Shown here: positions 2,128 through 22,086 of the stretch, one piece after another
Layout of the letters: each line of letters opens with the position of its first letter
How positions within the stretch are numbered: the stretch's first letter is position 1
IMG/VR virus record: IMGVR_UViG_3300032050_000684
Span: 1 to 26,748 of that record
Direction: 5' to 3' (one strand)
Length of the DNA: 26,748 nucleotides
From: a virus
Made by a program: the position numbers and the translations under genes
The notes under the pieces: generated by a model
The model's input: the letters and a program-made list of their open reading frames with translations, nothing else
Database searches by the model: none
Told to the model about the DNA's origin: nothing

Positions 2128-2934
2128 ATGAATCCGTTAGACAATTTGAGTATTAGTAAAATTATTTTAATTGTTGGTGCAGCTGGAGCAAGGAAGGATT
2201 TTGTCAGCGGATGGCTTGGGTTGTGCGATGATTTTGTTAGACTGAATTGGAGAATTGACCCATTAATAGGTTACAGTAGAATTGACAGCATTGGGCACGA
2301 CATTTCCGCAGTGGCTGACAGTATCGAGCGCGGAGACTTGCACATTGACCCAACAGTAAATCAACGGCTAGCAATAACATGTCACATAGCTGATGGGCTA
2401 GGGGGCGATACTGCAGATATTGGCACTGTAAATAAATTAGCCAAGCTAGTTAATTCCAACGTGTTGACCATAGCCGGTATTGATTTGCGCAACGCAGATA
2501 TGTCTCAATACTATTGGGATCGATTGGTCAAAGTGCACCTATGCATTGGTATGAAATACAATCAGCATCGTCGTCAACACAACATTGGTGAGATAAAAGG
2601 AGCATTTGGTTCGTCTGACGTATCAACCGACGACCAGGCAATCAAATATATCGAGAATAGAATAAACATGGCAGTTGAAAATAGCTCGTTGGCGCCCAGG
2701 GATCAAGATAAACATTGGCCTCTTTATAAAAAGTTAGAATCGTTATCGCCACTTGATCTTGACTATGCAGAATTATTCAAGCCTGGTGGTAGCTATTATC
2801 TGTGCAATATAGTAGGAGCAACTGCCCCCGAAAGAGCACATGCCTACTGGGACGCAATGCTTCCGTTTATCAATGCACCCGACTCTTGCACAGCGTTTGG
2901 AAGAGAGTGGGACAAGTCAATGATTGTCAAGTAG
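2128..2934 (+). CDS. unknown protein with a P-loop-like N-terminus (268 aa)
   Basis: The N-terminus IILIVGAAGARKDFVSGWLG has the shape of a Walker A strand-loop-helix (hydrophobic strand, then GxxGxxKD), but the last position is D rather than S or T. The fold could be that of a P-loop kinase or sulfotransferase; no second catalytic motif is certain. The middle contains VLTIAGIDLRNADMSQYYWDR split over residues about 110-130, and the C-terminus is rich in aromatic residues. It follows the 125-aa gene after 1 nt and its last 18 nt overlap the convergent polymerase-like gene. Function unknown; the nucleotide-binding idea is inference only. Confidence 0.6.
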   Translation: MNPLDNLSISKIILIVGAAGARKDFVSGWLGLCDDFVRLNWRIDPLIGYSRIDSIGHDISAVADSIERGDLHIDPTVNQRLAITCHIADGLGGDTADIGTVNKLAKLVNSNVLTIAGIDLRNADMSQYYWDRLVKVHLCIGMKYNQHRRQHNIGEIKGAFGSSDVSTDDQAIKYIENRINMAVENSSLAPRDQDKHWPLYKKLESLSPLDLDYAELFKPGGSYYLCNIVGATAPERAHAYWDAMLPFINAPDSCTAFGREWDKSMIVK

Positions 2935-3483
2935 ATTCATATGCAACGCAACCAAGGCTGCATAACTTACAGCATGTGACTTTTTGAACGTGTATCCTTG
3001 CGAGTCGTTGCCGTCCCATACTGTAGCAAACACATCTGCCCAGGGTTGATTCTGCAAGTGAGCTTTGCCTGGTCTAATGATAGAGATAAACGCTGCCATC
3101 TGTGGTATAGTCGTGGGCCGCATGTTCTTCAACAGGTCTGTGTAATTTCCCACGTGAACCAGCTGCTTGGACCAGTTGACATCTTGCCAAAGTCTATTCC
3201 ACGGCGGCGTTGCTGCCAACATCTCTTGATAGTGTTCAGGACTCTTGACCAACTTGTACACATTCATGTTCAAGAAATCTATCTTGAAATAGCCACGATC
3301 TTCTGCTTGTTCATACTCTAATGCCGCACACTCATTTACGGGATCATACGGAATATCTGTAACATACACACCTGAGTTGTGTCGACGCACCTGACCTTGA
3401 ACCGCTTGCCGTGCCGGCGTGTGCCGAATCAACTTCAACACATGATCTCTGTCAGCAAAGTCAATGTCAATGTCTGCACTCAT
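2917..3483 (-). CDS. miniature DNA polymerase III alpha (DnaE)-like protein
   Basis: Only 188 residues, against about 1,100 in a bacterial DnaE, yet several DnaE landmarks occur in the right order. Residues 3-19 (ADIDIDFADRDHVLKLI) match the DnaE palm motif PDFDIDFCxxxRDxVI that holds two catalytic aspartates (here D6 and D8). Residues 64-73 (GYFKIDFLNM) match GLVKFDFLGL with the third catalytic aspartate (D69). A MRPTTIP...ISIIRPGK segment matches the KPTSF...LYRPGP region, and YTFKKSHAVSYAALVA near the end matches YGFNKSHAxAYA. The PHP, tau- and beta-binding parts are absent. The gene starts 1 nt after the zinc-finger gene's stop and belongs to an early operon with a clamp-loader-like gene. 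Whether it still polymerises DNA cannot be seen. Confidence 0.7.
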   Translation of the reverse strand: MSADIDIDFADRDHVLKLIRHTPARQAVQGQVRRHNSGVYVTDIPYDPVNECAALEYEQAEDRGYFKIDFLNMNVYKLVKSPEHYQEMLAATPPWNRLWQDVNWSKQLVHVGNYTDLLKNMRPTTIPQMAAFISIIRPGKAHLQNQPWADVFATVWDGNDSQGYTFKKSHAVSYAALVALHMNLLDNH

Positions 3484-3484
3484 G

Positions 3485-4174
3485 TTACCATCCTGCTTGT
3501 TTTAGAATCTCTTTGGCATACTCTTGGTCTGCTGAATAGTCATGAAATTTCTTTTGCCATGCATCCGAGTCAATATAAGGCCATATCATTGTGATCTGTG
3601 TTGTGTCTAGTGTGTTCAAGAACTCTTGGCCCGACGCTGAATTGTAGATTACCCAGGGTGAGATGCGTCCTGTTGTGACAGCATGACATAGTGCATTAGT
3701 ATTGCCATATCTTAAACAGTCATGTGCTGGGTGTGTGGTCTTTTCACTCCAGTCAATGCTGTACTCTACTGCACGGGCTAGAGCGTCTGCCACAGCTTCT
3801 ACCTTTAAGTAGAACAACAAGTACTCTGTGTAGATTTTATCACTGCACCAATGATCAATTTTCTTGTTGTTCTTGAGCAGCCAAGTCATAAACTGTGCAG
3901 GGTTAATAGCTCGTGTGTTGACACAGTAACGACCAAACTTTACAAAGGCTCGATAATAAGGGCTGTCACAAAAGTCCTCAAATGTTTTTAACTTTGCTGA
4001 TCCTTGTGCCATTTCATAGAACTTGATATAGGCCTGGAATCCCAGTTGTACACCACGCTCACTTTGTTCCATGCGCCTGCGCTTGGGCTCGCACATGTGT
4101 ACTGCAATAGAGCTTTCTCTTGCAAACTCTTTTTTGCAAAACTCACACGTGAACTTACTTGTTGTCTCTGCCAT
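3485..4174 (-). CDS. zinc-finger protein of unknown function in the replication operon
   Basis: From the ATG at 4174 the protein is 229 aa; an upstream in-frame TTG at 4195 would add seven residues but is a weaker start. An N-terminal Cys2-His-Cys finger is visible: C10-x2-C13-x12-H26-x-C28, followed by a basic patch PKRRR. The remaining 190 residues are helical, rich in aromatic residues and not recognised (it includes CVNTRAINPAQFMTWLLKNN). The start overlaps the end of the preceding gene by 20 nt, and 1 nt separates its stop from the polymerase-like gene. Binding to DNA or to replisome partners is plausible from the finger and context, but is not shown. Confidence 0.65.
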   Translation of the reverse strand: MAETTSKFTCEFCKKEFARESSIAVHMCEPKRRRMEQSERGVQLGFQAYIKFYEMAQGSAKLKTFEDFCDSPYYRAFVKFGRYCVNTRAINPAQFMTWLLKNNKKIDHWCSDKIYTEYLLFYLKVEAVADALARAVEYSIDWSEKTTHPAHDCLRYGNTNALCHAVTTGRISPWVIYNSASGQEFLNTLDTTQITMIWPYIDSDAWQKKFHDYSADQEYAKEILKQAGW

Positions 4175-4607
4175 GTGCTCTAATGTATTGATCAAGTTCT
4201 TTTTTGGTTGTTATTGCTGCCATGACATCTATCTCGTCTGACTTGTAGTGTGGGAACAACTCTGCCAATTGTTTTTTTATGCTGCCGACACCTGCTTCTT
4301 TTTTCTTGGGAGCAATCCAGTTGTGTCTCATTGCACCTAGTCCTGGACTCACAGTTGTGGCCATGAGCCATTGCAGTTTACGATGTCGGGTTGAGTTGAT
4401 GTTAAAAAAGTTTTTGTTCAATCTCTCGTTGGTAGAAATCACATAAAACTCTTGTAGGTCTCTTGAGCCTTCAACTGCCGATCCCCAACGTATCATGAGA
4501 AACGGAGCAAACTTCTTGCGTTCGTCTTCTGTTAAATCGTCATAGAAGTCTCTGACCTTGTGGTCAAACATTTTCATCTCGTTAGCAATGCTTAGTTTAT
4601 CAGTCAT
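4155..4607 (-). CDS. possible clamp-loader small subunit (gp62-like)
   Basis: A 150-residue protein, first gene of a three-gene early operon. It has FAPFLMIRWGSAVEGSRDLQ at residues about 33-52, then STNERLNKNFF, a KLQWLMATTVSPGLG stretch, and a basic IAPKKKE segment. This order (aromatic-basic P-F-I-R-x-x-S, then N-E-x-x-N, then a K-L-Q helix) resembles the small clamp-loader subunit gp62 of T4-like phages, which with gp44 loads the sliding clamp. The match is from memory of the family pattern and is not strong; treat it as a candidate. The ATG at 4607 has no Shine-Dalgarno motif and lies 6 nt after a TATAAT box, so translation is probably leaderless. Confidence 0.45.
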   Translation of the reverse strand: MTDKLSIANEMKMFDHKVRDFYDDLTEDERKKFAPFLMIRWGSAVEGSRDLQEFYVISTNERLNKNFFNINSTRHRKLQWLMATTVSPGLGAMRHNWIAPKKKEAGVGSIKKQLAELFPHYKSDEIDVMAAITTKKELDQYIRAHGRDNK

Positions 4608-4613
4608 ATTACT

Positions 4614-4641
4614 ATTATAACACTATGTTAACAAAAGTCAA
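4614..4641 (-). promoter_or_regulatory. sigma70-type early promoter, leaderless geometry
   Basis: TTGACT (4636-4641) and TATAAT (4614-4619) on the minus strand, spacer 16 nt, with 6 nt between the -10 box and the ATG at 4607. The -35 element lies inside the last codons of the upstream SGNH-like gene. It should drive the operon of 4607, 4174 and 3483. Confidence 0.7.
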
Positions 4642-5281
4642 TACCCAGTGTTTCTCCCACTGCTTGCCTAAACTTATCTTGCCAATCACGATCATACACG
4701 TGATACCCGTGTAATGTGGGGGTAGGGTAATCCCAAAGATTTGCGGATATCTTGTTTGCAAGGTATTGCTCTAGCTCATTTGGAATGCTCATATTTTTGA
4801 ACACATGTTCTGGCAATTCAGTACCGCCAAGTGTGTAAGCAAATGTTATGTTGTTTGTTTTTAAAAAATTCAAAGTAGACAGCACAACATGATATGACTG
4901 TAGTGCTAAAAAATCTGTTGCTACCAATCCATAATAATGATCTACAAATTTTTTTTCCACAGGATATGCGTCAGACATTATTGAATGTTTCCACCGTTTG
5001 GCATAGTGCTCAGCTAAAGTCAGATCTGGAGTAACTGTCACCGAATGTGTAGAGTCTCGATCAAATTCAAATCTAGAATTTCTAGTAAAACTCACAACCA
5101 CATGATTGTGCCCAAGTGCTACTGCGTAACGTACTTGATTTGCAATCAAAACATTTGAACATGCACCTACTGCCAATATTTTTTTATGTAGGTCAGGCGG
5201 CAATTGGTCAGTCCAATGAATACCAGTTTGATCAGTAGTCATATAACTATCTCCACAAATGGCTAACTTTATGTTACTCAT
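4628..5281 (-). CDS. SGNH/GDSL hydrolase-like protein, copy 1
   Basis: 217 residues starting with a beta strand and a block-I motif, KLAICGDSYM (G10-D11-S12), the nucleophile site of SGNH hydrolases. A second block, VVVSFTRNSRFEFDRD at about 81-96, takes the position of the family's GxND block. The C-terminus has YHVYDRDWQDKF, shared in outline with the second copy at 6179-6793 (FHINNQDWQAEF). The usual Asp three residues before the catalytic His is not visible, so hydrolase activity is uncertain. SGNH enzymes remove acyl groups from glycans or lipids. The gene overlaps the preceding 88-aa gene by 8 nt and is probably read with it. Confidence 0.6.
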   Translation of the reverse strand: MSNIKLAICGDSYMTTDQTGIHWTDQLPPDLHKKILAVGACSNVLIANQVRYAVALGHNHVVVSFTRNSRFEFDRDSTHSVTVTPDLTLAEHYAKRWKHSIMSDAYPVEKKFVDHYYGLVATDFLALQSYHVVLSTLNFLKTNNITFAYTLGGTELPEHVFKNMSIPNELEQYLANKISANLWDYPTPTLHGYHVYDRDWQDKFRQAVGETLGIDFC

Positions 5282-6167: not shown

Positions 6168-6196
6168 ATATTACAGTATTATTTTGTTTTTGTCAA
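6168..6196 (-). promoter_or_regulatory. sigma70-type early promoter, leaderless geometry
   Basis: TTGACA (6191-6196) and TAATAT (6168-6173) on the minus strand with 17 nt between them and 6 nt from the -10 box to the ATG at 6161. An overlapping TATACA would give a 19-nt spacer and is less likely. The element lies over the last codons and the stop of the SGNH-like gene at 6179. Confidence 0.6.
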
Positions 6197-6793
6197 CAGA
6201 GTTTGTACATTATTTGCAAACTCAGCTTGCCAATCTTGATTGTTGATATGGAATATAGGACGGTTCTCATGTGGCTGTTGCCATATGTCTTGAGTAAGTT
6301 CGCAGTATGCATATTGTTCAAACACAAAATTAAATCTTGTAGCGTCATCATCTAATATTAAATGATTTTTCTCAGCAGAGTTAAACAACAAACGATGCCA
6401 AACAAACGGTATGTTGTGCTTGCGCAAGGTTTCAAATATAAAAGATATTTGTGTGCATGCTAAAATATGTCTATATTTTGCCGACATCACTGATAGCCAG
6501 ACTTTGTAGAATAATTTTTGATCTGAATTTAATTCCCAATCGTGACAGCTGGAATATGTTTTTGATCCGTATTCAAATGCGATTCGAGCTTCATCAGTTA
6601 GTCCCACAACTACCACTGCAGGATTGTATGCAAGCCCATCCATCAACTGCTCTGAAATCCAGGCCAATGATGCACCACCTTTGGCCAAGTTTACTACACG
6701 GTATTCAGGCAGCATCTCGCTCCAGTGTTCACCTGGATAGCGTTCGTCCTGTGACATAAAACTATCGCCAATGACCAGCATAGTGGGTTTCAT
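6179..6793 (-). CDS. SGNH/GDSL hydrolase-like protein, copy 2
   Basis: 204 residues from the ATG at 6793; an upstream in-frame GTG at 6808 is possible but the ATG forms a 4-nt ATGA overlap with the uvsW stop and is preferred. Block I is MLVIGDSFM (G9-D10-S11). A VVVGLTDEARIAFEY block follows the position seen in copy 1, and the C-terminus FHINNQDWQAEF aligns with YHVYDRDWQDKF of copy 1. The two genes are thus paralogues with low identity. As in copy 1 the Asp expected three residues before the His is absent. Downstream of uvsW and coupled to it. Substrate unknown; an esterase or deacylase role is inference from the family. Confidence 0.6.
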   Translation of the reverse strand: MKPTMLVIGDSFMSQDERYPGEHWSEMLPEYRVVNLAKGGASLAWISEQLMDGLAYNPAVVVVGLTDEARIAFEYGSKTYSSCHDWELNSDQKLFYKVWLSVMSAKYRHILACTQISFIFETLRKHNIPFVWHRLLFNSAEKNHLILDDDATRFNFVFEQYAYCELTQDIWQQPHENRPIFHINNQDWQAEFANNVQTLLTKTK

Positions 6794-8259
6794 TTGATTT
6801 TCATCCACTCTAATTTCTCTGCCGAGAACGGATAGTTGGCTTCCTTGTAGAATTGTTTACGCTTGGTCAAGTGTCGTTTGGCAAACTTGCAGGTTGATGT
6901 TATGTCCCAGATCTGAACATGATCTTTATCTTCTGCTTTGCGTATGCCACGGCCAATTGACTGGATGACTCTAACAAAGCTCTTGCCAGGTTCAATGAGT
7001 ACCAGATTAAAAATACGGGGAATGTTAATACCAACAGCAGCCACACCATAAGTTGCTACAATAATTTTACCTGTTGCATCAGCCACTTCGTCATATTCAT
7101 CTTGCCTGGCTTTTGCTTTGGTTGCTCCGGATACAAACACAGCACCATCACCTAGACGTTCTACCAATTGACGTCCACACTCTGTTCTGTCCACCAGCAC
7201 AAGTGTGTTGCCTGTTTCGTTGACTTTACGCACAAGGTCTGCCATGGTATCAAGGCGTCCTGATTCCTCAAGCAAGTATTTAAGCTCACTTTGATAGTTT
7301 GAATATTCCACGTGATCTACCAACTGCACAATGTTAACGTGGCACTGAGCCAGCACACCACGATCCTGAAGTTCACTTGCACTGAGCTTGCTAACAACAG
7401 GACCAAGTCCAACCAATAATGCTTGGCTCTCAAACTTCTCTTTGGGTATGGTTCCGGTCAACCCCCAACGAATTGGCACTCTAGCCATGATGCCTGTTAG
7501 CAGGGTTTTGAGTGCATCTGCTTTGGCCATGTGTACTTCATCTACAATAACACATACCACATCTTCCATGAAGTCTTGTATGGTAAACTTTGCTGTGCCT
7601 TCTTTGGAGTCTTTAAGCAGGTTATTTAGACTTTGCCAAGTGCAAATGGTATGTGTCTTGCCGTAGTCTTTACGGTCACCAAAGTACACACCCACATCCA
7701 GACCCAAGTTGACATAGTCCTTTTCTGTTTGTGTTACCAAGCTCTTGTTGGGCACAATAACAATTGACCTACCATAGGGTTGTACGTTCCAACTCAAGGC
7801 CGCTGTCATGATAGTCTTGCCTGCACCTGTGGCCACTTCTTGTATGCATTGCGGGTTCTGCAGGTAGTTGTTGATGATCTCTACTTGGTAGTCTCGCAAC
7901 ACAATGGGTTGACCTTCTTGTGGATGTCCTTTGGGCCATAGTGTGTCAGCAAAAGTGTCTTCCCGCATCTCAGCAAACTCAAATGTGGTTGAGTACTCAC
8001 GTTGGTCATCTAGTTCAATGTCGTAGTTGTACTGCTCCAGGATAGGAATGATCTCTGGCAACAAGTTGGTGTAGGTGCTACCACCCAGTTGGAAGTAGGC
8101 AATCTTGCCATCCCATCTGCCTAGTCTCACCGCAGGCAAATACCTTGCTGCCGGATTTTCGTACTTGAAAGTATTAACCAGTTTCTTACGCACATCCAAG
8201 TCAAGACCCTCTAGCTTGATATTGACCTCATCACGTATTTGTATTGTGCATTGTTTCAT
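6790..8259 (-). CDS. uvsW: UvsW-type superfamily 2 DNA/RNA helicase
   Basis: 489 residues, close to T4 UvsW (about 500). The N-terminal 100 residues contain the T4-type dsDNA recognition region (YLPAVRLGRWDGKIAYF). Helicase motifs follow in order: LRDYQ at 121-125, Walker A ATGAGKT at 143-149, DEVH at 240-243, LTGT at 267-270, and motif VI QSIGRGIRK at 433-441. UvsW unwinds branched DNA and R-loops and helps switch T4 from origin-dependent to recombination-dependent replication. The ATG at 8259 matches the family's N-terminus and no ribosome site precedes it; the promoter's -10 box ends 6 nt upstream. Ends in a 4-nt overlap with the SGNH-like gene. Confidence 0.95.
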   Translation of the reverse strand: MKQCTIQIRDEVNIKLEGLDLDVRKKLVNTFKYENPAARYLPAVRLGRWDGKIAYFQLGGSTYTNLLPEIIPILEQYNYDIELDDQREYSTTFEFAEMREDTFADTLWPKGHPQEGQPIVLRDYQVEIINNYLQNPQCIQEVATGAGKTIMTAALSWNVQPYGRSIVIVPNKSLVTQTEKDYVNLGLDVGVYFGDRKDYGKTHTICTWQSLNNLLKDSKEGTAKFTIQDFMEDVVCVIVDEVHMAKADALKTLLTGIMARVPIRWGLTGTIPKEKFESQALLVGLGPVVSKLSASELQDRGVLAQCHVNIVQLVDHVEYSNYQSELKYLLEESGRLDTMADLVRKVNETGNTLVLVDRTECGRQLVERLGDGAVFVSGATKAKARQDEYDEVADATGKIIVATYGVAAVGINIPRIFNLVLIEPGKSFVRVIQSIGRGIRKAEDKDHVQIWDITSTCKFAKRHLTKRKQFYKEANYPFSAEKLEWMKIK

Positions 8260-8584: not shown

Positions 8585-9607
8585 TTAGGCACTCTTCATG
8601 CATGTTGTCTCTGACATGCGCTTCCAGTTGTTAGGGAAGCTCTTGCGCAAGTCTGCAATCTTGAGCGCCATGCGCAAGGAAACCTCACGCAGGCGTTCCT
8701 TGTTAACATGCATAAAGTCAATAATGTCGTCTTGTGCGTACTCATTAAAGTCGTAGTCTGCAAACAACACACCATCTTTGGCAATCTGTTTGATACGCAA
8801 CAACTTGTCCCGCATGGTGTCCAGGGTCAAGTCCAAGTAGTGGCAACGACTTTGGAGAGCGTCCAAGTGGTCACGCAACTTTTGACTTTTCATTTTGTCA
8901 AACTTTAAGTTTGTGATAAAGATGACACTGCCTTTAAACTCAAAACGGTCTGGAATGCCTTCTCTGCGCAAAGCACTAGACTCTGACAACCAGGAGATAA
9001 CACGCTTCTTACCAGAGTCCAAGGCACCCTTGAGCAGGTTAAGAGCAACGTCATCTAACAAGATGCTGTCACAGTCGTCAAACACTACGACGCTGTTGGC
9101 GTCACTGTATTTGTACAGAGTTTGGTACAAGCCGATAGGAGTGGCACTGCCTTTAACTACCTCTGCACGGAGTCGTTTGCCTGCCAACTTGTCAAACAAG
9201 CAGGCTTTCTCAATCTCTGTCTCGACGCCGTAGCTCTTGCCTACACCTGGAGGGCCGCTCACAATCATAGCACGGATGTCACCTGACACGGTGGCCTTTG
9301 TCATCTCGTGCAGGATGTCAAAACGCTCACGGATACGATCCATGGCCTCGTCATCTGTCTCGACTACTGCGGGCTTCTCAAAATGTACTGTATTATCTTG
9401 CACGGCATCTCCTGTTACATATTCAAAATTTTGGATGGAATCTACCTTGATACGGATTGTATCTGGGCAGTTGGGAAAGTTACCATCATTCTTGACAGTA
9501 ACATAATTGCCTTTGGCGCCAGAGGCATAGCCTGACACTAAAGTAAAAGCAATATTGCGGACGGGCTTGTTACGATACTCACCCTTAATGATACGAATGG
9601 CACTCAT
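8585..9607 (-). CDS. AAA+ ATPase
   Basis: 340 residues. An N-terminal beta-rich region (1-75) is followed by an AAA+ module: Walker A GPPGVGKS at 118-125, Walker B VVVFDDCD at 173-180, sensor-1-like FITN at 230-233, and a helical lid with LREVSLRMALKIADL near the C-terminus. Such proteins remodel or load other proteins using ATP. The SRC arginine-finger signature of clamp-loader gp44 is not seen in the usual place, although LQSRCHYLDL near residue 250 could serve as the arginine finger region, so gp44 is not excluded but not favoured. Has an AAGGAGC ribosome site and a consensus promoter. The two tiny genes follow directly. Confidence 0.8.
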   Translation of the reverse strand: MSAIRIIKGEYRNKPVRNIAFTLVSGYASGAKGNYVTVKNDGNFPNCPDTIRIKVDSIQNFEYVTGDAVQDNTVHFEKPAVVETDDEAMDRIRERFDILHEMTKATVSGDIRAMIVSGPPGVGKSYGVETEIEKACLFDKLAGKRLRAEVVKGSATPIGLYQTLYKYSDANSVVVFDDCDSILLDDVALNLLKGALDSGKKRVISWLSESSALRREGIPDRFEFKGSVIFITNLKFDKMKSQKLRDHLDALQSRCHYLDLTLDTMRDKLLRIKQIAKDGVLFADYDFNEYAQDDIIDFMHVNKERLREVSLRMALKIADLRKSFPNNWKRMSETTCMKSA

Positions 9608-10655: not shown

Positions 10656-11387
10656 TTAACGCCAAAGATCTTGTACTACTTTGTCGTTAATTTCGTGCGG
10701 CTTTGGCTTGCCATGAAAAACTAATACTGAAGTATTACCCAGAATTTGTGTGCCTTGCCCAGGAATTCTGTGGCGTCTAGTGTTAAAGTCGTAGCCACCA
10801 TCTAAACATTGCCAGCGCCAACTTTGCATTTGACTGTCTTCAAAATATCTAATTCTGTTGTGGCCAAGCACGGCGTTTATGTAGTCTTGATCGCCTGGGT
10901 ACTGCCTTGAAGTGTTGACCACATTGGTGGTGTTAAACTGATTCCATATCCAAGACATCTTTTCAACATTCCACCACATCACACTGCTGTTTAATGTTGA
11001 GTAACCTGGACGTTGTAGGTGTTTAAAGTCTTTAATGCCCCAGAGATATTCTGTGGGCAGTTGTGAGATCCAAGAGATGTCACGAAGTATCACTGTGTCA
11101 AGATCAAAATACAACAAGTTGCCTTGATGATGTTCAGAGTTAAACAGTTGTAGTTTATACCACCATGATCGTTTGGGTCCTGATATTTCAGGCCAGTTGG
11201 TTAACGCATGTTTGATCATGTGTGCAGGAACTGATCTGTCCTGCTCAGTATACACATGGAATCGTAAGCCGTTGGGAAGATTACGACTTAGCATATTATA
11301 CAGTCGTTCTACGTAGATCCAATCATACCCAGTGCCGTGTATCACACACGCACAATCTACAAGGCTGGTCGTATTCTGTTTAGCCAT
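10656..11387 (-). CDS. glycosyltransferase-like protein (GT-A fold, DxD)
   Basis: 243 residues. LLYFDLDTVI at 91-100 has the DxD motif (D95, D97) that binds the metal and sugar nucleotide in GT-A glycosyltransferases; the upstream SWWYKLQLF segment and the later NSSVMWWN and GDQDYIN segments fit the family pattern in which a nascent chain or receptor site follows. It shares its WxKxQLF...FLDLDTV core with the gene at 15770-16411, so the two are paralogues. The start at 11387 overlaps the preceding gene by 31 nt. Sugar and acceptor are unknown. Confidence 0.75.
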   Translation of the reverse strand: MAKQNTTSLVDCACVIHGTGYDWIYVERLYNMLSRNLPNGLRFHVYTEQDRSVPAHMIKHALTNWPEISGPKRSWWYKLQLFNSEHHQGNLLYFDLDTVILRDISWISQLPTEYLWGIKDFKHLQRPGYSTLNSSVMWWNVEKMSWIWNQFNTTNVVNTSRQYPGDQDYINAVLGHNRIRYFEDSQMQSWRWQCLDGGYDFNTRRHRIPGQGTQILGNTSVLVFHGKPKPHEINDKVVQDLWR

Positions 11388-12187
11388 AAGCCTTGTTCCA
11401 GTTCATTTAGTGTGTATTCTGTGTGACTGATTTGTGTGAGCCATAAATCTCTGTTGGTACTGTACGGCTGTTCTATGTCAGCAAATCCAGCGCCCACAGG
11501 ATAGGCCAAACTAGTGCTATGCACAATAGGACGAGATCCAGCAATGGCCGCTTGTATGCCTGGTCCAGAATTGTAGTTTACAATAGCATGACAATCCAGT
11601 GCCAAATCAAAGCTGTCGTAAGTGCCAGGTATCTTTGCAGGCTGTTCAACTGTAACACCCAGACCTGTAACGTCCAATCGGCATCGAGGGTGTGGGCGTA
11701 CATGTATGGGGCGGTCAGTAACATTCCTCAAGCATTGAATTTGATCACGTACCCATTGATTGAAATCTATCCCGGCTGATTGTTCACTTTTGGAATGTTG
11801 TGCGGCAATAATCACATGCGGTTTTGGGTTGGCAGGAGTTTTTAAAACCAATCCTAGTTTTTTTGGGCGACCCCAATCCAACTGATCTAAATGTCCGTAA
11901 TAGCCTTGTGCGTTTATGTTGTTCACTGCAACCTTCCATGTTGTGCCACGTTGCAGGGTGCCTATGTCAGCTACCACAACAGGACGATTCAGTGATCGAT
12001 AGTGCTGATACACTGCTTGATTGGCTGCCATACGTCCAGACCACAGCACTGACCAAATTAATACTGCATCTGCTGTCATGGAATTTTCTTCTAGCACATG
12101 TCCAGCACCACGTAAACTAGAGAGCAATGCGGACATAACTAGTTTTGAGTTCAGTGCTGTTTGTGCAGGGAAGTAAGCAATTTTCAT
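11357..12187 (-). CDS. capsule polysaccharide synthesis-like protein (possible GT)
   Basis: 276 residues. Two motifs fit glycosyltransferases of the capsule synthesis (KpsS/KpsC-like, GT-B) type: RPIHVRPHPRC at 159-169, and NSGPGIQAAIAGSRPIVHST at 206-225, where a glycine-rich loop near a histidine binds nucleotide sugar. N-terminally ADAVLIWSVLWSGRM is a beta-alpha element. The gene at 12988-13896 has the same pair of motifs (HPGD, then NSTPNVVAAIEGIP) and is a distant paralogue. The ATG at 12187 follows a late-type octamer. The product likely transfers or modifies a sugar; no catalytic base can be assigned. Confidence 0.6.
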   Translation of the reverse strand: MKIAYFPAQTALNSKLVMSALLSSLRGAGHVLEENSMTADAVLIWSVLWSGRMAANQAVYQHYRSLNRPVVVADIGTLQRGTTWKVAVNNINAQGYYGHLDQLDWGRPKKLGLVLKTPANPKPHVIIAAQHSKSEQSAGIDFNQWVRDQIQCLRNVTDRPIHVRPHPRCRLDVTGLGVTVEQPAKIPGTYDSFDLALDCHAIVNYNSGPGIQAAIAGSRPIVHSTSLAYPVGAGFADIEQPYSTNRDLWLTQISHTEYTLNELEQGLWLNRIRPAL

Positions 12188-12196
12188 ATTGACGAA

Positions 12197-12204
12197 TATT
12201 TAAT
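12197..12204 (-). promoter_or_regulatory. late-type octamer for the 12187 gene
   Basis: Minus strand ATTAAATA, two changes from TATAAATA, 9 nt before the ATG at 12187. It faces an identical octamer on the other strand, so the 34-nt gap is nearly palindromic. Confidence 0.45.
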
Positions 12205-12207
12205 GCT

Positions 12208-12215
12208 ATTAAATA
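12208..12215 (+). promoter_or_regulatory. late-type octamer for the 12222 gene
   Basis: Plus strand ATTAAATA, 6 nt before the ATG at 12222. By T4 spacing transcription would start within a base of the start codon; there is no ribosome site. Confidence 0.45.
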
Positions 12216-12221
12216 CTCCAT

Positions 12222-13016
12222 ATGATATTACCACCAACACATGGTGCCGTAGCACCCGTAGATTTTTTTATATACGCTGCCTGCGACGCAGGATATTTTG
12301 ACGAGTTTGGTCATGAGTTAATTGCCAGCATACATGCAAATGCACGTGAACATTTGCACTTGCATATTTTTAATCCAACATCCGCACAACTAGATTATTG
12401 TGCTAGACAAACAGGTGTTAGCGTAACCTATGAGCATGTAGGGCCTGAAACGTTTAATGCCGCAGCCAATCAGTGGGTTACACCGCCTGCTGACGCACTA
12501 CGTAAATCTCAGCTGGACCGCACTGTTAATGCCATGGGCAAAGGCCATGATATTAATTTGCATCATCGCATGCAAAAAACCTACTATGCATGTGCTAGGT
12601 TTATTAGACTTGCTGAGATTGCTCGTAACCGACGCTTTATGAGCATGGATGTGGATGCACTGGTTCGGAAACCGTTACCGCCTTTGGGTACCGAGCACGA
12701 CTTTTACCTACACAAGATTACAGGACGTAAAGCTCGTATTCTAGCAGGTGGCATGTATGTGCATCCTCAAGGACGTAGTCAAGAGTTCTTGGACGAGTAT
12801 GCCAGAGCACTAGCAGCCAATTTAGAAAGTGATTATATCTATTGGGGTCTTGACCAAGACATACTGGACCAGCTTGTTCCCAAATATGCCAGCGGTCATT
12901 TGCCTATAACATTGATTGATTGGGACATGCATCCTGACAGTGTTATTTGGACTGCCAAGGGCACAAGAAAAGACTCGCCTAAGTTTGTTAATGAGAAGCG
13001 GAAATATACTTCTTAA
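12222..13016 (+). CDS. glycosyltransferase-like protein (DxD)
   Basis: 264 residues. FMSMDVDALVRKPLPPLG carries the DxD-type motif D143-V-D145 after a beta strand, followed by LAGGMYVHPQGRSQEF and YWGLDQDILDQL, which fit the receptor-site elements of GT-A transferases of the GT8/GT32 type. The N-terminus has FFIYAACDAGYFDEFGHELI, the first Rossmann-like strand. It is read opposite to its neighbours from a late-type octamer and ends with a 29-nt overlap with the convergent gene. Substrate unknown. Confidence 0.65.
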   Translation: MILPPTHGAVAPVDFFIYAACDAGYFDEFGHELIASIHANAREHLHLHIFNPTSAQLDYCARQTGVSVTYEHVGPETFNAAANQWVTPPADALRKSQLDRTVNAMGKGHDINLHHRMQKTYYACARFIRLAEIARNRRFMSMDVDALVRKPLPPLGTEHDFYLHKITGRKARILAGGMYVHPQGRSQEFLDEYARALAANLESDYIYWGLDQDILDQLVPKYASGHLPITLIDWDMHPDSVIWTAKGTRKDSPKFVNEKRKYTS

Positions 13017-13896
13017 TAGCTGTCCATAACGCACCAGAGCGTACTTCATCATTGCTCCAGTGTATGTTTGCAATCTTGTGAATCCATGCTGATCTGTCGG
13101 GCATTGGCGGTGTTTCAACCAAGGCAAGATCATTGAACGCAACATCGGCAGCCCAGCTACGACTAGGATCTTCAACATAGCCTGGGATGCCTTCTATGGC
13201 AGCAACTACATTGGGTGTTGAGTTGATGCCCACTGTGCACCAACAGTTGACCAAGGCGTCACGAATGTTTTCGTGTTCACTAATTATTACACTGGTGCCA
13301 TACTTCTTTTGTATTTTTTCTATCTGTTTGAATCTAGTACCATCACCAGGATGCATGCGAATCATGATAGGACGGCGGCTGTATTTGCGAATCTTGGCCA
13401 CAGTTTTTTCCAACCAGGCTTCTTGATCTGTAAACATGTTGAACCCTTTGGGACGCTGACACAAAACAAGAATATGATTCCCTGTGGTGCGCCAGGGCTT
13501 TAGATCAACCCCGTGCCAGGCACTAAATGTGTTCCATTTGGCAGTGTCCAAGTTGTCAAAAAAGTACGTGCCTGAATTAGGATACACTGACCCTAAACTA
13601 TAACGATGCCATTCGTGCTCCTTGCGTCCATAGTGTAAAATGTTGCTGTCCACAAATACTGCAGGAACTTTTTGTAGTCGCAGTTGATCAATGATCTTTT
13701 TGCGGAAGTTATCTTCTAGTGTGTATCCCAACACAAACCCTGCATCTAACCGTTGATTGGGTAATGTGTTGTCTCTAAAATCAATAACGGAGTCTCCTTG
13801 ACCACGCACCCCATGTGCAAAGTTATCCATCAACATTACTTTGTTTGAGAACTTGGCAGGATTTCTAATACTGTTATAAAATATTCCTACTTGCAC
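12988..13896 (-). CDS. capsule polysaccharide synthesis-like protein (possible GT), paralogue
   Basis: About 302 residues. No ATG lies near the expected N-terminus; GTG at 13896 or TTG at 13902 are the candidate starts (the sequence VQVGIFYNSIRNPAKF should be included). RPIMIRMHPGDGTRFKQI at about 175-192 and NSTPNVVAAIEGIPGYVEDP at about 225-245 repeat the motif pair of the 11357-12187 gene. LVLCQRPKGFNMF gives a further beta-alpha element. This suggests a GT-B-like protein for polysaccharide assembly. It overlaps the GT25 gene's stop by 10-16 nt, so the two are co-translated. Confidence 0.6.
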   Translation of the reverse strand: MQVGIFYNSIRNPAKFSNKVMLMDNFAHGVRGQGDSVIDFRDNTLPNQRLDAGFVLGYTLEDNFRKKIIDQLRLQKVPAVFVDSNILHYGRKEHEWHRYSLGSVYPNSGTYFFDNLDTAKWNTFSAWHGVDLKPWRTTGNHILVLCQRPKGFNMFTDQEAWLEKTVAKIRKYSRRPIMIRMHPGDGTRFKQIEKIQKKYGTSVIISEHENIRDALVNCWCTVGINSTPNVVAAIEGIPGYVEDPSRSWAADVAFNDLALVETPPMPDRSAWIHKIANIHWSNDEVRSGALWTAIKKYISASH

Positions 13897-14648
13897 ACCC
13901 AATCCTTTGATTTGGTCATTGATATGTTGCCTTCTTCAGCAAGAGTATTACGGCCCATGAGATAGGTGCTGATTTGTAAAGGTGTAATAAATTGGTTGAT
14001 TGCATTGTCTGCAGGATACCAATAAGGTCTGTAAAATTTGGTCAAGCCCAGGGCCGCATCAGGTTTGATTGCATATCCGCTGGCGCCGGGCATGCTGAAA
14101 TTCTGCCACTTGCGAGCTATCGCAGGGCCAGTGGGATTTTCTAAGTAGCTTTTCTGTGGCTCAGTCATGTAGGAACTTTTGCCCAAGCTAAGAATTAGTA
14201 CACCATCAAACTCCACAGGATGATATCCACGATAGAACTTGACGTCATCTTCAAAGATCATAATAGGCTCGTTGAGTTCTAGACATTTTTTCCAAAGACC
14301 GTAGTGGCTGTAGAAACACCCGACCACACCTGGACGACTGAGTTTGCCAACATCGTCTTCGCCGATGAGCTGTCGTTCAATGATTTCAAATTGATGTTTT
14401 TTTATGAAATTTTCGTACAGTTCTGGACGAATTAGCTCTTTGACATCTTGGTCATTTAATCTGCGATTTTTAATGCTGTAGGGATACAATGTTTTTTCAG
14501 ATTTTCTTGCCAAGGCGACTGCCTTGTTACCGGGAGTGCCTTCAAACAGTTCAGCATCAATGTTGTACTCCTTGAGTTGATCCAACATGATTTGGGAATG
14601 GCGAACGCTGTGTTCACGTTCTGGGAGGTAAATTATAAATGCTTTCAT
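13887..14648 (-). CDS. family 25 glycosyltransferase-like protein
   Basis: 253 residues with the core of glycosyltransferase family 25 (the LPS galactosyltransferase type). The match runs from RPGVVGCFYSHYGLWKK at 105-121 through PIMIFEDDVKF at 128-138, where E133-D134-D135 is the acidic metal site. ASGYAIKP later on matches the G(x)xGYxI acceptor-side motif. The enzyme should move a sugar from a nucleotide donor to a saccharide or hydroxylysine-like acceptor; the acceptor here is unknown. The ATG at 14648 lies in a divergent intergenic region that contains a perfect late octamer for the opposite gene. Confidence 0.8.
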   Translation of the reverse strand: MKAFIIYLPEREHSVRHSQIMLDQLKEYNIDAELFEGTPGNKAVALARKSEKTLYPYSIKNRRLNDQDVKELIRPELYENFIKKHQFEIIERQLIGEDDVGKLSRPGVVGCFYSHYGLWKKCLELNEPIMIFEDDVKFYRGYHPVEFDGVLILSLGKSSYMTEPQKSYLENPTGPAIARKWQNFSMPGASGYAIKPDAALGLTKFYRPYWYPADNAINQFITPLQISTYLMGRNTLAEEGNISMTKSKDWVCK

Positions 14649-14660
14649 GTTTTATATGTA

Positions 14661-14668
14661 TATAAATA
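14661..14668 (+). promoter_or_regulatory. T4 consensus late promoter (TATAAATA)
   Basis: A perfect TATAAATA 30 nt before the ATG at 14699, leaving a leader of about 24 nt with AAGGGA as ribosome site. It should drive the three forward genes 14699, 15238 and 15770. Confidence 0.8.
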
Positions 14669-14698
14669 TTTAGTGAACAATATTAATCAAGGGAAACA

Positions 14699-15241
14699 AT
14701 GTCGTACAGTTTAAAATCCGGAAAAGCAGAAACACTAGCTTGGTTTCAGGCAAACGAAGCAACTATTAAAACAGTGGTAGACATTGGACCTGGATCAGGA
14801 ACATATATCAAACTCATACGCGAAGATGCCCGATGCTGTGCGGATGCTATCTGGATTGGTGTTGAAATTTGGAAGCCTTACATTGAAGAATTCAACTTAG
14901 AAAGCAGATACACTCAAGTACTCAATCAAGACGTTCGTACCGTAGACTGGGCTGTGCTCAATCCTGATGTGGTCATAGCCGGCGATGTGCTAGAGCATAT
15001 GACCAAAGAAGATGCTATTATACTTGTGGATCGTATTTTACAGGTATCCAAAACGTTGATTGTTAGTATTCCCATTAGATACATGCCGCAGGATGAACAC
15101 GCTTATCCCAATCCCCACGAAGAGCATGTCAAAGATGACTGGAGTCATGAGGAAGTTATGGCCACGTGGGGCAAGTATGTCAAAGACTCGTATCGAAAAA
15201 GTCAAAAAAGCAAACTAGGCGTGTATTGGATGAGCAGATGA
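14699..15241 (+). CDS. class I SAM-dependent methyltransferase
   Basis: 180 residues. VVDIGPGSGTYIKLI at 26-40 is SAM-binding motif I; VGVEIWKPYIEEF-like residues (55-65) are the acidic strand that holds the ribose; PDVVIAGDVLEHMTKEDA at 89-106 is the motif IV/V region with the DVLEHM signature. It resembles small-molecule or sugar methyltransferases rather than DNA methyltransferases, because no DPPY or similar motif is present. The C-terminus is basic. It ends in a 4-nt ATGA overlap with a second methyltransferase-like gene, so both act in one unit, probably on glycan or its precursors. Confidence 0.8.
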   Translation: MSYSLKSGKAETLAWFQANEATIKTVVDIGPGSGTYIKLIREDARCCADAIWIGVEIWKPYIEEFNLESRYTQVLNQDVRTVDWAVLNPDVVIAGDVLEHMTKEDAIILVDRILQVSKTLIVSIPIRYMPQDEHAYPNPHEEHVKDDWSHEEVMATWGKYVKDSYRKSQKSKLGVYWMSR

Positions 15242-15777
15242 GAAGTCTAGATGATCTTAAACAAGATTTTATCAATCTTGTAATTGAGCCAACTGCTTGG
15301 CTCGGAGACAGTCCTGATCGATTTGATACCTATGCTAGATATGCTAGTCAGGTAGATAGCATTACTGAATTTGGTGTGTATACTGGTCTTAGCACTTGTG
15401 CATGGCTGTCAGGAAAACCAAACAAGCTACGCAGTTACGACATTACGGATAAAAATTTATCCGTCTTAGATGAGCTCAAGGGCAACGCAGAACTTAATGG
15501 TACTGACTTTGAGTTTGCACTTGCAAACAGTTTAGAAATTGAAATCGAACCTTGTGACCTGTTGTTTATTGATACTGTACACAAACGTGATCATTGTTTA
15601 GCTGAATTAAACAAGCACGGATCTTTTGTTAACAAGTACATTGTGCTACACGACCCTAGTGACTGGCCTGGAGTATTTGAAGCCGTGATTATGTTTTTGC
15701 ACCATAACAGGCAATGGCATATCATTGAACATTGCAACAAGAACTCTGGACTACTTGTATTAGAGAGATATGCTTAA
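15238..15777 (+). CDS. class I methyltransferase-like protein (Methyltransf_24 type)
   Basis: 179 residues from the ATG at 15238, the ATGA overlap with the previous gene. An upstream frame exists but would run through the previous gene. ITEFGVYTGLSTCAWL at 42-57 is SAM motif I; LRSYDIT at 64-70 is the acidic second strand; CDLLFIDTVHKRDHCLAEL at 106-124 is the DTVH-type metal/catalytic element seen in TylF-like and cephalosporin hydroxylase-like methyltransferases that work on sugars or macrolides. Its role is probably a sugar O-methylation, inferred from the glycosyltransferase neighbours. Confidence 0.7.
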   Translation: MRSLDDLKQDFINLVIEPTAWLGDSPDRFDTYARYASQVDSITEFGVYTGLSTCAWLSGKPNKLRSYDITDKNLSVLDELKGNAELNGTDFEFALANSLEIEIEPCDLLFIDTVHKRDHCLAELNKHGSFVNKYIVLHDPSDWPGVFEAVIMFLHHNRQWHIIEHCNKNSGLLVLERYA

Positions 15778-16411
15778 TGTTGTATGCTTGCTACGGCAAG
15801 GTGGCAAGGTTGGGTATGATGCTAGTTGGGTCAAAAAACTTCAACACAGTGTTCACCGTAACCTAACACTACCTCACAGATTTATATGTTTCAGTGACTG
15901 TGAGGTGCCTTGCGAACGAATAGAATTGCTACCAGGCGATCACGGATTCTGGAGCAAGATGCAGTTGTTTCGTCCTGGTGTGTTATCTGGCCCAACATTG
16001 TTCTTGGATCTTGATACTGTAATATGCAGTAACCTAGACAGCATGGTTTCACAATTACAGGGTCAAAAGTTTGTTATGTGGGTTGAGGCAGATAAGAATA
16101 TACACTCAAGTGCTCTTATGTATTGGGAAGAAGATCATAGCTATTTGTGGACTCTTTACCAAAGCCAGCCGTTATTGTACTGGCAGGCATTGTATAGCCG
16201 TCCTCCGTTGTATGGTGATCAAGCTATCATAAGTGAAAATACCAATCACACTATTCTAACTGATCATTGCCCTACGTCGTGGTTTCACATAGCATCACGC
16301 AACGACGAACACTTGGATCTCAGTGCAGTAAAAATGTTAATGTTTAGAAAAGTATCTCAAAAGCCCAGTACCATGGGGCATCACCCGTTAGTGCAACAAC
16401 ACTGGATTTAA
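15770..16411 (+). CDS. glycosyltransferase-like protein (DxD)
   Basis: 213 residues. FWSKMQLFRPG and FLDLDTVICSNLD at 60-88 hold the DxD (D80-L-D82); SALMYWEEDHSYLW and GDQAIISEN follow as in the GT at 10656. The C-terminus has the late family element FRKVSQKPSTMG. The start at 15770 overlaps the previous stop by 8 nt. This places a second copy of the same GT family in the forward unit. The acceptor is unknown. Convergent with the gene at 16408 by 4 nt. Confidence 0.75.
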   Translation: MLNVVCLLRQGGKVGYDASWVKKLQHSVHRNLTLPHRFICFSDCEVPCERIELLPGDHGFWSKMQLFRPGVLSGPTLFLDLDTVICSNLDSMVSQLQGQKFVMWVEADKNIHSSALMYWEEDHSYLWTLYQSQPLLYWQALYSRPPLYGDQAIISENTNHTILTDHCPTSWFHIASRNDEHLDLSAVKMLMFRKVSQKPSTMGHHPLVQQHWI

Positions 16412-17091
16412 ATTTCTCGTTGCAAACAATACTCAGTTAGAATACGTTCTCTGTGCCACTCATCACCTTGTGGTGTGTCAGCAAACTCTTGGAAACAGGG
16501 TGTGCCTAGCGTGTAGTGCAACAGCTTGGCATCCCGGTTGACACCATACTCATCAGGCAGCCAGTTCCATTCTGGAGGCAGCTCGCCAATACGATCATCT
16601 TCTAGCCACGAGAAGCGGTGGAGCTCACTGCCTGTGGCGTGTTGGACGAACTGGGGAGTAAGTTGCCTGTTAGGAAAAGAATTACAATTCCACAGAATAA
16701 CACTACTCCAATTTTTTCGAGGATAGTCTTCATTTTTTGATCCTAAGTATTTTACAGGCATCCGAGTTTTGTAGTCATGTTTGACCACCATCACATCGTT
16801 ATACGGATTCTGCAGTTCCCATAACTTCACAATATCATCACGCACAATCATGTCGCCGTCAATAAAGATGGCCCAACCGGTGTATTCTTGCAGGTGTGGT
16901 ACTAGAAAACGAGTATAGATAAAGTGATTGCTTCCGTCTGTATGTGTTTCTTCGTAGTCACGAAACAAGTTCAGGGCCACGGGAATAATAGCCACAGGCT
17001 TTGATGCATGTCTTATGATTGAGTTAGCACAGGTGTGAAAAGCAATGGCTTCTCTTGGGTCGTACCCTACATAAACTGGTATGGCTTTCAT
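16408..17091 (-). CDS. glycosyltransferase family 8-like protein
   Basis: 227 residues. IPVYVGYDPREAIAFHTCAN at 4-23 is the N-terminal nucleotide-binding strand seen in GT8-like enzymes; WAIFIDGDMIVRDDI at 73-87 carries the DxD (D78-G-D80); NWSSVILWNCNSF and LHYTLGTPCF are the later family elements. It is coupled to the nucleotidyltransferase-cupin gene by a 4-nt ATGA overlap, so that gene may make the donor or a precursor sugar for this transferase. The acceptor may be virion protein, DNA or host surface; the sequence does not say. Confidence 0.8.
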   Translation of the reverse strand: MKAIPVYVGYDPREAIAFHTCANSIIRHASKPVAIIPVALNLFRDYEETHTDGSNHFIYTRFLVPHLQEYTGWAIFIDGDMIVRDDIVKLWELQNPYNDVMVVKHDYKTRMPVKYLGSKNEDYPRKNWSSVILWNCNSFPNRQLTPQFVQHATGSELHRFSWLEDDRIGELPPEWNWLPDEYGVNRDAKLLHYTLGTPCFQEFADTPQGDEWHRERILTEYCLQREI

Positions 17092-17843
17092 CGGCGCTCG
17101 ATGTCTTCTTCCACACAGTTTTCGCCAAACTGAATTTCGATTATTTTAAGTGGCTGGTCGGTTTCGTTACACAACATGTGCCACTGATTCTGTTTGATCC
17201 AGATATGCTCATGCACTCCAAAATGACCAATGAGATCGTGATCACTAGAATTGTCCAAGGTGTACACAGCGGCTTCGCCCTCGGCCACAAACCAAAACTC
17301 AGCACGTCGATCATGTCGTTGCATGCTTAAACATGTTTTAGGTGCTACAGTTAGTTCTTTGAGTTTGGTATTTGCACCAACTTCGTGTAACACACGATAG
17401 TAACCCCAGGCACGACCAGTTCGTGGCTTTTTCCAGTCTTCCAGTATCCACGAACTGGAGTTCATCTTGTTTTCGCCGCCTACACCAAACACAAACTCCA
17501 CATCATCAATGATCATTTCAGGAATGTTGTCTTGAGTACGATCGCCGCCATTGGCAAACACAATTTGATCTTTAGGATACCGTGTTTTCAACAGTCGAAT
17601 AGCATCACAGCTCGAACCGTCAGAGTCGTTGTAAACAACAACTTCGTCCACGATCTTCAATGCGCTGACCAATTCAAATCTCTCGCTCATGGGCATGAAT
17701 GGTTTGCCTTTTTTACGAGTAAGCCATTCGTCGGAATTGAGGCCAACTACAAGTTTATCACCTAGTTGTTTTGCTGCCTGAAAGTAGGCAAGATGTCCAG
17801 AGTGGATGGGGTCAAAGCCCCCAGTTACAAGTACAATTTTCAT
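17088..17843 (-). CDS. nucleotidyltransferase fused to a cupin (sugar-phosphate enzyme)
   Basis: 251 residues from the ATG at 17843. The N-terminal 100 residues are a HxGH-type nucleotidyltransferase: KIVLVTGGFDPIHSGH, with H14 and H17, then VGLNSDEWLTRKKGKPF, as in cytidylyltransferases that activate glycerol phosphate or heptose. The C-terminal 110 residues have CLSMQRHDRRAEFWFVAEGE followed by HEHIWIKQNQWHMLCNETDQ and the ending FGENCVEEDIERR, the cupin of mannose-6-phosphate isomerase type II. An isomerase or epimerase step and an activation step may thus be in one chain. Upstream in-frame codons to 17948 were rejected, because they lie in the UvsY-like gene. Confidence 0.75.
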   Translation of the reverse strand: MKIVLVTGGFDPIHSGHLAYFQAAKQLGDKLVVGLNSDEWLTRKKGKPFMPMSERFELVSALKIVDEVVVYNDSDGSSCDAIRLLKTRYPKDQIVFANGGDRTQDNIPEMIIDDVEFVFGVGGENKMNSSSWILEDWKKPRTGRAWGYYRVLHEVGANTKLKELTVAPKTCLSMQRHDRRAEFWFVAEGEAAVYTLDNSSDHDLIGHFGVHEHIWIKQNQWHMLCNETDQPLKIIEIQFGENCVEEDIERR

Positions 17844-17848
17844 GTAGA

Positions 17849-17856
17849 TATTTACA
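17849..17856 (-). promoter_or_regulatory. late-type octamer, leaderless geometry
   Basis: Minus strand TGTAAATA, exactly 5 nt (TCTAC) before the ATG at 17843. With T4 spacing (octamer at -13 to -6) the A of ATG is +1. It overlaps the stop of the UvsY-like gene. Confidence 0.55.
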
Positions 17857-18304
17857 CCTGTATGTCTTCCATGCCTGCAGTTCTTAGCCTGACCACGTGA
17901 CCCATTTGCCACTGTTTGGTATCTAGGCCTTTCATAATACCCAGCCACCGATTACGTAACAATGCAACTTCGTTGATTAGAGTTTCCATGTCAATAACTT
18001 CGTCCTCGCCGTCTACATATTTTTCAGCGTCTCTGCTGGTTAACGCTCTTGCATATCCTTCAAGATACTTTTGAAAATGTCGTCGACGTATTTTGCGTAA
18101 CTGTATGTTGAGAAAATTAAGCACCGCTTCAATCTCTTGTAGTTGATTAAACCGATGCTCGGTAATGCCGGGCAGTGCAGTGATATTTTTTTCTACTATG
18201 CCACCGATGCGACAGTCTTTCTTGGCTGCATCTAGTTCGTGTTCGTAATATGCAACAAAATCTGGAAGCAGACTCAGGTCTGCTGTAACTTTACTATACC
18301 ACAT
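17852..18304 (-). CDS. uvsY: probable UvsY-like recombination mediator
   Basis: 150 residues, mostly helical, close to T4 UvsY (137). The C-terminal half has the stretch YLEGYARALTSRDAEKYVDG at about 95-114, then LINEVALLRNRWLGIMKGLD and LRTAGMEDIQV. This is the pattern I associate with the UvsY of marine T4-like phages; UvsY displaces gp32 and loads UvsX on single-stranded DNA. Its place at the end of a unit that contains gp32 and uvsX genes supports the call. The start overlaps the radical SAM gene by 11 nt. The identification rests on recalled family patterns and context. Confidence 0.55.
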   Translation of the reverse strand: MWYSKVTADLSLLPDFVAYYEHELDAAKKDCRIGGIVEKNITALPGITEHRFNQLQEIEAVLNFLNIQLRKIRRRHFQKYLEGYARALTSRDAEKYVDGEDEVIDMETLINEVALLRNRWLGIMKGLDTKQWQMGHVVRLRTAGMEDIQV

Positions 18305-19538
18305 ATTTTTTATACTCAGCTAGCCAAGGAAATAGCAATTCCCAATTGGTATTGCGTCTACGATCTTTTTCGTCAAGATACTTTAATAGTGTAGTGACTT
18401 CTGCAGGATTAACTTTTGACTGTGTAATACTACCCGCTATACCTGCCATGTACTTGTAGGCTATCTTGTCTTCATCTGTGTTTTGTGGCATTAGTGATAG
18501 TATATAATCAAAATCTTGTCTAAACTGCTCGCCGCCTAATATGCCAGCATTAAAGTAGCTAGGTCCAGGTGTTGGCCCACCGAAATGATGATGCACAGGT
18601 CGTATGGCATTCCACTCTTTTAACTTGATCAATAGTTCAGGCATAGTCTTGATAGTGAGTGCAGTGATAGTCTGATTGATGCTGATGTACAACCATTTGT
18701 GCATGATTAGTGTTTCAAAGTTTTTTTGCCATTGCTCAAGATCAATTCCCCATCTTACATATTCTTGTTGCGGACCCCAACAATCTATACTGCATGTTAT
18801 ATCAACTCGTTTTATTTTTTTTGTCAGTAAAAGTTTTTTAAGTTTTTCAACAAACATACTTAATCTATCTGGCGAAACCATGAGATTAGTTACGATATTA
18901 AGTTCGCAATCTGGGTTAGGATGTCGGTCGATCATGTCTAAGAGTTTTTCAAACTCCTTCTGATAGAACGGTTCACCGCCTAATACACCAAATCGTTTGA
19001 GTTTAACAAATCCTGAAGGGAACCACTCCCAAAAACTTGGTATTAACTCTTTATGGTGTGTCTCAATTGGTGCTAGCAATGAGATAGTTTTTTCTAATGT
19101 ACCAAATTTCTGATTCTCTGTGTTTATCACTGAGCTCAATGTTGGCCCGCAGTATAAACATCCTAGATTACAAGTGTTACTAAAAAAGACTTCTAGTATC
19201 ACAGGACTTACTACAATTGACTCAGGATTGTGCATCAGTTCTGGTGGCGACAAATCTGTTGCATCAATTTGTCGTAGTCGATCACTTACTCCCCCCGACT
19301 CTTCAATGTTTTTACAGTAAGAACAACTAGTTTCAGGCCACAATCCTTGTAACATTCTTTTGCGATCACTTAGCACAATTTCAGTATTGTGAAAATTATT
19401 AAAATTTTCCGGAGTCAATGGTGTTTCAGCAGTGCGATGGCAAGTTCGAGAATATCCTCCATTGAGATATAAAGACGTCCAATTCCATTTTAATTGACAA
19501 CTTGTTGCAGTCCGAATTGGAAAGTATGTCTTGGACAT
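18294..19538 (-). CDS. radical SAM protein (twitch-type)
   Basis: 414 residues. The radical SAM cluster motif is C123-x3-C127-x2-C130 (CNLGCLYC), followed by VLGGEPF at 185-191, the SAM-binding GGEP motif. An N-terminal WNWTSLYLNGGYSRTCHRT segment and C72/C75 (SCSYC) may form an auxiliary metal site. The half-barrel matches radical SAM proteins annotated as twitch-domain enzymes in phage and bacterial genomes. Substrate unknown; related enzymes modify peptides or small molecules. It is inserted between the 89-aa acidic gene (1-nt stop/start spacing) and uvsY, so it is expressed with the recombination genes. Confidence 0.8.
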   Translation of the reverse strand: MSKTYFPIRTATSCQLKWNWTSLYLNGGYSRTCHRTAETPLTPENFNNFHNTEIVLSDRKRMLQGLWPETSCSYCKNIEESGGVSDRLRQIDATDLSPPELMHNPESIVVSPVILEVFFSNTCNLGCLYCGPTLSSVINTENQKFGTLEKTISLLAPIETHHKELIPSFWEWFPSGFVKLKRFGVLGGEPFYQKEFEKLLDMIDRHPNPDCELNIVTNLMVSPDRLSMFVEKLKKLLLTKKIKRVDITCSIDCWGPQQEYVRWGIDLEQWQKNFETLIMHKWLYISINQTITALTIKTMPELLIKLKEWNAIRPVHHHFGGPTPGPSYFNAGILGGEQFRQDFDYILSLMPQNTDEDKIAYKYMAGIAGSITQSKVNPAEVTTLLKYLDEKDRRRNTNWELLFPWLAEYKKYVV

Positions 19539-21937: not shown

Positions 21938-22073
21938 AGTGTTTCTCCTTGTTAAGTTGCCTATGTTATATGCCTATCTAAAATTTTTAGATGTGTAGTT
22001 GCCTGTGCATACAAGTTGTATTGTATACGAATGTATTTAGCATCACAATAGTAAAAGGCAAAGTTTGTTGGCT

Positions 22074-22081
22074 GATAAGTA
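22074..22081 (+). promoter_or_regulatory. late-type octamer, leaderless geometry
   Basis: GATAAGTA, two changes from TATAAATA, 5 nt before the ATG at 22087. No ribosome site precedes the gene. Confidence 0.4.
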
Positions 22082-22086
22082 TCGCT

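Follow-up and report, generated by a model that had tools for sequence, protein, structure and literature searches.

Introduction

A minimal DNA polymerase III alpha subunit (Pol III alpha) split into N- and C-terminal proteins was described in group 2.2 jumbo phages in 2021, where the two proteins are encoded by distant genes and a family B polymerase is present alongside (PMC7824862). The same study proposed that family C polymerases originated as a small nucleotidyltransferase (PMC7824862). A truncated alpha subunit of 172 aa has been reported in phage CBB (PMC5259590), and alpha and epsilon subunits in Atu_ph07 (PMC6102473). We found no papers in the open-access literature that tested the function of the split enzyme.

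Here we analyzed a stretch of viral DNA of 26,748 nucleotides (hereafter the window), which is a fragment of its genome. The product of a gene at 2917–3483 is the metal-binding, C-terminal half (C-half) of a split minimal Pol III alpha, and the gene is a new member of the split enzyme published in 2021, from an uncultured lineage. An earlier sequence-only reading of the window had described this product as a Pol III alpha relic; we find a family C (DnaE) fragment that is neither a relic nor alone.

Family assignment of the 188-residue protein

The gene is an ATG-initiated open reading frame of 188 aa on the minus strand, assigned from the reading frame together with profile and fold matches. 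Its product matches the family PHROG 11778, annotated as DNA polymerase, at E=5e-52. Pfam returned a sub-threshold match to the finger domain, and a phmmer search of PDB with the single C-half sequence gave chance matches only; profile and fold searches were required. Profile–profile comparison of the C-half with full-length DnaE, along the lines that the sequence-only reading had proposed, gave E=3e-10 over E. coli residues 510–641, and a second, colinear match covered residues 738–774 (E=4e-4). The AlphaFold model of the C-half had a pLDDT of 94.5 and a pTM of 0.85, and its best 15 matches in a fold search of PDB were all Pol III alpha or PolC, led by 4iqj (E=9e-4, probability 1.0, TM 0.50 over the query). 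The PHROG, profile–profile and fold matches thus bear out the family C palm and finger motifs, as well as the DnaE-like fold, that the sequence-only reading had put forward. As a stand-alone protein, the C-half corresponds to the C-terminal Mg-binding and finger segment of Pol III alpha.

Conserved residues and missing domains

The C-half carries the catalytic aspartate triad and the palm and finger motifs in the order found in DnaE and PolC. From its N terminus, and all on the minus strand, these are DIDIDF (residues 4–9; 3457–3474); HNSGVY (residues 35–40; 3364–3381), corresponding to E. coli KHAGGVV near 511–516; KIDFLN (residues 67–72; 3268–3285); the fingers motif IIRPGK (residues 135–140; 3064–3081), corresponding to E. 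coli ALFRPGP at 636–642; and KKSHAVSYA (residues 167–175; 2959–2985), corresponding to E. coli FNKSHSAAYA from 756. The DIDIDF, KIDFLN, RPGK and KSHAVSYA regions had been recognized earlier in this same order. The earlier numbering of the aspartates stands in part. D4, D6 and D69 align with E. coli D401, D403 and D555, which we take to be the catalytic aspartates of alpha, K67 aligns with K553, and D8 aligns with D405; the choice of D69 therefore holds, but the catalytic pair is D4 and D6 rather than D6 and D8, although D8 is invariant too. The DIDIDF match is too short for a score of its own, and we placed it by motif order, a weak colinear match in M. tuberculosis DnaE1 and a predicted strand at residues 5–9.

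Conservation was assessed across 170 C-halves ranging from 26% to 100% identity to the window protein. Sixteen residues were invariant in 170/170: D4, D6, D8, H35, G38, P45, K67, D69, L71, W95, I136, R137, P138, K140, H170 and Y174. The claim that all catalytic aspartates are kept, which variation among relatives would have overturned, is upheld in every one of these relatives. C-half length is also uniform (183–198 aa, n=80). Loss of the PHP, thumb, OB and C-terminal domains could be taken as the mark of a decaying relic of full-length DnaE, but with at least 579 relatives of the C-half in IMG/VR, uniform length, invariant residues and conserved gene order, such decay is extremely improbable, and we reject it on residue invariance and uniform length.

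The C-half has no PHP, clamp-binding, OB or tail domain. In DnaE and PolC, one chain carries the PHP, thumb, clamp-binding and OB domains together, an architecture that the 188-aa protein does not share. The spacing between D403 and D555 falls from 152 in E. coli to 63 in the C-half, and the thumb has therefore been lost. Similarly, the spacing from RP to H760 falls from 121 to 33, so that the finger segment with YQEQ and R709 has been lost. Because the thumb, YQEQ and the invariant DnaE residue R709 lie within the deleted stretches, normal templated synthesis is not assured.

The N-terminal half and the split point

In relatives of the window, a distant gene encodes a separate protein of ~170 aa (the N-half, PHROG 11127) that carries the GRGS nucleotide-binding motif. 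The sequence-only reading had supposed that DnaE palm and finger motifs were joined with the rest removed; this is correct for the PHP, thumb and other domains, but in relatives the preceding DnaE segment is kept as this separate gene. We recovered the N-half with a Pfam DNA_pol3_alpha search in RaK2 and in two C-half-bearing contigs of >260 kb, and it is absent from the 26.7-kb window. Typical N-halves are 165–182 aa long and end in GVGRGSSVASY...EFLR (EFLR/K) followed by the stop, and C-halves begin M..DIDIDF. The G-x-G-R-G-S motif is kept in 105/105 N-halves. Landmarks in E. coli DnaE are GPGRGSGAGS (359–368), FERFL (388–392) and PDFDVDF (400–406). Since the N-half ends at about FERFL and the C-half starts at about PDFDVDF, the break between the two proteins lies in the loop that immediately precedes the catalytic strand.

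The two halves are complementary. The N-half profile was placed at E. coli 318–393 (E=1e-11), and the two profiles cover consecutive DnaE segments without overlap (318–393, then 510–641 and 738–774); single-chain phage DnaEs were matched by both half profiles in the expected order. The first 11 PDB matches of the N-half AlphaFold model (pLDDT 84) were Pol III alpha, with weak E-values of 0.05 and above. Apart from single-chain DnaE controls, no fused or adjacent halves were found in the fetched loci, and the halves are separated by 34 kb in RaK2, 15 kb in XacN1 and 182 kb in Atu_ph07.

Distribution and the family B polymerase

The C-half matched 63 of 50,697 phage records, and the RaK2 N-half likewise matched 63. 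All but one of the 60 records listed for the C-half (59) are also listed for the N-half; the one missing there is PP728206, a record of 109 kb. Carriers of the C-half among the matches listed include the giant phages RaK2, 121Q, CBB, PA5oct, Atu_ph07, Vibrio 2.275, XacN1 and relatives, and the giant-phage C-halves among these matches are 26–44% identical to the window protein. Identity is 38–44% for the nearest cultured phages, and the window lineage is uncultured.

Among 28 large or complete records, the N-half was present in 15/15 of those selected by their C-half, and the C-half in 8/13 of those selected by their N-half, counts that do not amount to a probability because the genomes share descent and are not independent. 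The former set includes a record (G001) whose C-half is 74% identical to that of the window. Of the five N-half records without a C-half, most are fragments: three contigs are shorter than 200 kb and a fourth measures 262 kb, but the fifth (G015, locus L223) is 359 kb long; this last contig has an N-half and a family B polymerase, and no C-half was detectable in it even at E up to 10.

That a family C fragment coexists with a family B polymerase, as anticipated by the sequence-only reading, was confirmed in 27/28 large or complete records of relatives. Active-site motifs of the family B polymerase were intact in 5/5 inspected (RaK2 gp43 and four others); the 26.7-kb window fragment itself contains no family B polymerase. 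A DnaQ/epsilon-like exonuclease was not a constant third subunit, with Pfam RNase_T found in 9/25 records only.

These patterns bear on whether the C-half acts alone, as a non-catalytic docking module, a clamp mimic or a decoy for host DnaE, all of which had been suggested earlier. A chain without the GS-motif segment and without the clamp-binding domain would be compatible with such roles, but a dock or decoy would need neither the catalytic residues, every one of which is kept in 170/170, nor a co-occurring second gene with a GS motif. Further, the C-half cannot mimic the clamp-binding part of DnaE because it lacks the clamp-binding domain. We consider these suggestions unsupported and this explanation very unlikely.

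Genomic context

The C-half lies among conserved neighbors, all on the minus strand. Immediately upstream, one base before the C-half start, is a zinc-finger protein (PHROG 11058, 3485–4195). It holds this upstream position, with the strand shared, in 158 C-bearing loci, and it is a possible partner of the C-half. A protein of PHROG 11758 with no assigned function (4155–4607) is a conserved neighbor in 150 C-bearing loci, and a UvsW-like helicase (6790–8259) forms part of the conserved gene order. Downstream of the C-half is a DNA primase (PHROG 47, 2–622) that is cut by the window end and occurs in 131 C-bearing loci. Primase and helicase genes follow the C-half in cultured phages, where the N-half is near a GroES-like gene and sometimes gp44.

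The sequence-only reading placed the gene in a clamp-loader-like operon, which our comparisons did not support. Profile comparison of PHROG 11758 with T4 gp62 gave a probability of 0.3% (against a single gp62 sequence), and the 4155–4607 product had no match to any Pfam clamp-loader model. A weak clamp-loader match was seen in an AAA protein at 8585–9607, and gp44-like genes adjoin the N-half, not the C-half, in Atu_ph07 and SCTP-2. Profile comparison was also negative for PHROG 11058 and 11758 as additional segments of DnaE or as gp62.

Several other features of the window and its relatives were observed. A convergent 268-aa ORF (2128–2934, plus strand) overlaps the C-half end by 18 bases, occurs in only 10 loci and has no family match. 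Among the replication genes are two ORFs (4628–5281 and 6179–6808, both minus strand) whose products look alike and begin with a GDS motif; they may be SGNH hydrolases. The first had no PHROG or Pfam match and the second no PHROG match. A run of sugar-, methyl- and nucleotidyl-transferase-like ORFs, with a glycosyltransferase and a radical SAM protein (10656–19538), lies between the uvsW side and uvsX/gp32. The halves of an 899-aa ORF (21991–24690, plus strand) resemble a tandem duplication, with YLRSLGF.TFH.DI.DESYDD in both. One related contig (G026; L290, 5263–6963, minus strand; same contig as L073) encodes, ~4.3 kb from a split C-half, a 566-aa DnaE-like polymerase that is compact, consists of a single chain and lacks a PHP domain, and this phage therefore has both forms. 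No such 566-aa polymerase was found in 22 other records searched, and its nearest match in the phage collection was LR756508, an uncultured 484-kb phage (37% identity).

A putative two-gene family C core

Together, the 170/170 invariant catalytic residues and near-perfect co-occurrence with the GS-motif gene point to one subunit of a functional two-chain nucleotidyltransferase. From sequence comparisons and predicted structures, we think it likely that the C-half belongs to a two-gene minimal family C core, a putative short-patch nucleotidyltransferase that acts beside the family B replicase. D4 and D6 would come from the catalytic strand of the C-half and K67 and D69 from its second palm strand, with R137, K140 and H170 on its shortened set of fingers helices, and the PHROG 11127 protein would supply the GxGRGS helix, which in DnaE is located at the incoming nucleotide. 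The two chains may bind and assemble into one Pol beta-like nucleotidyltransferase site that would polymerize nucleotides. Because the thumb and clamp-binding domain are lacking, synthesis would probably be distributive, filling short gaps or finishing repair, lagging-strand or recombination intermediates. Of the roles suggested by the sequence-only reading, a repair polymerase comes closest, but one that would take two genes.

Alternatively, the two halves could form a nucleotidyltransferase that does no templated gap-filling and either primes synthesis or extends DNA ends, RNA or a protein by one or a few nucleotides. The thumb, YQEQ and R709 are lost while metal- and nucleotide-site residues are invariant, and an intact family B replicase is already present, both of which would fit this activity. 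However, invariance extends to the fingers motifs RPxK and KxH, used by DnaE at the nucleotide, and the conserved context is replicative (uvsW, primase, helicase), making this alternative rather unlikely. We likewise give a low probability to the thumb-less, clamp-less two-chain enzyme being no gap-filling polymerase but a family C nucleotidyltransferase of a new kind, employed by giant phages beside an intact family B replicase for end-tailing, priming or the modification of RNA or protein.

At ~360 residues over both genes, a split Pol III alpha would rank as a very small family C core and would offer a natural test of which DnaE parts are needed for catalysis. It is also relevant to the question of why giant phages have retained two unrelated polymerases, and to the proposed origin of family C (PMC7824862). 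With the split point located exactly and the invariant residues and partner genes identified, cultured phages such as RaK2, PA5oct and Atu_ph07 allow the idea to be tested directly.

Comparison with known systems

The palm of family C polymerases has the nucleotidyltransferase fold of Pol beta. In total size the split enzyme is similar to family X (Pol beta type) polymerases, and gap filling is a proposed analogy; our searches returned no family X match, so this is an analogy of function and not membership. The split enzyme resembles DnaE and PolC in its palm and finger motifs, catalytic residues, and profile and fold matches, but it consists of two chains and is without the PHP, thumb, clamp-binding, OB and C-terminal domains and the finger segment with YQEQ and R709.

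The closest system is the split enzyme of PHROG 11127 and PHROG 11778 (PMC7824862). The C-terminal unit is the same in the window, the window's relatives likewise have a distant N-terminal gene and a family B polymerase, and the window member shows no essential difference from the published enzyme. We determined the split point, the invariant residues and the co-occurrence counts independently of that study (PMC7824862), and the results lead to the same split.
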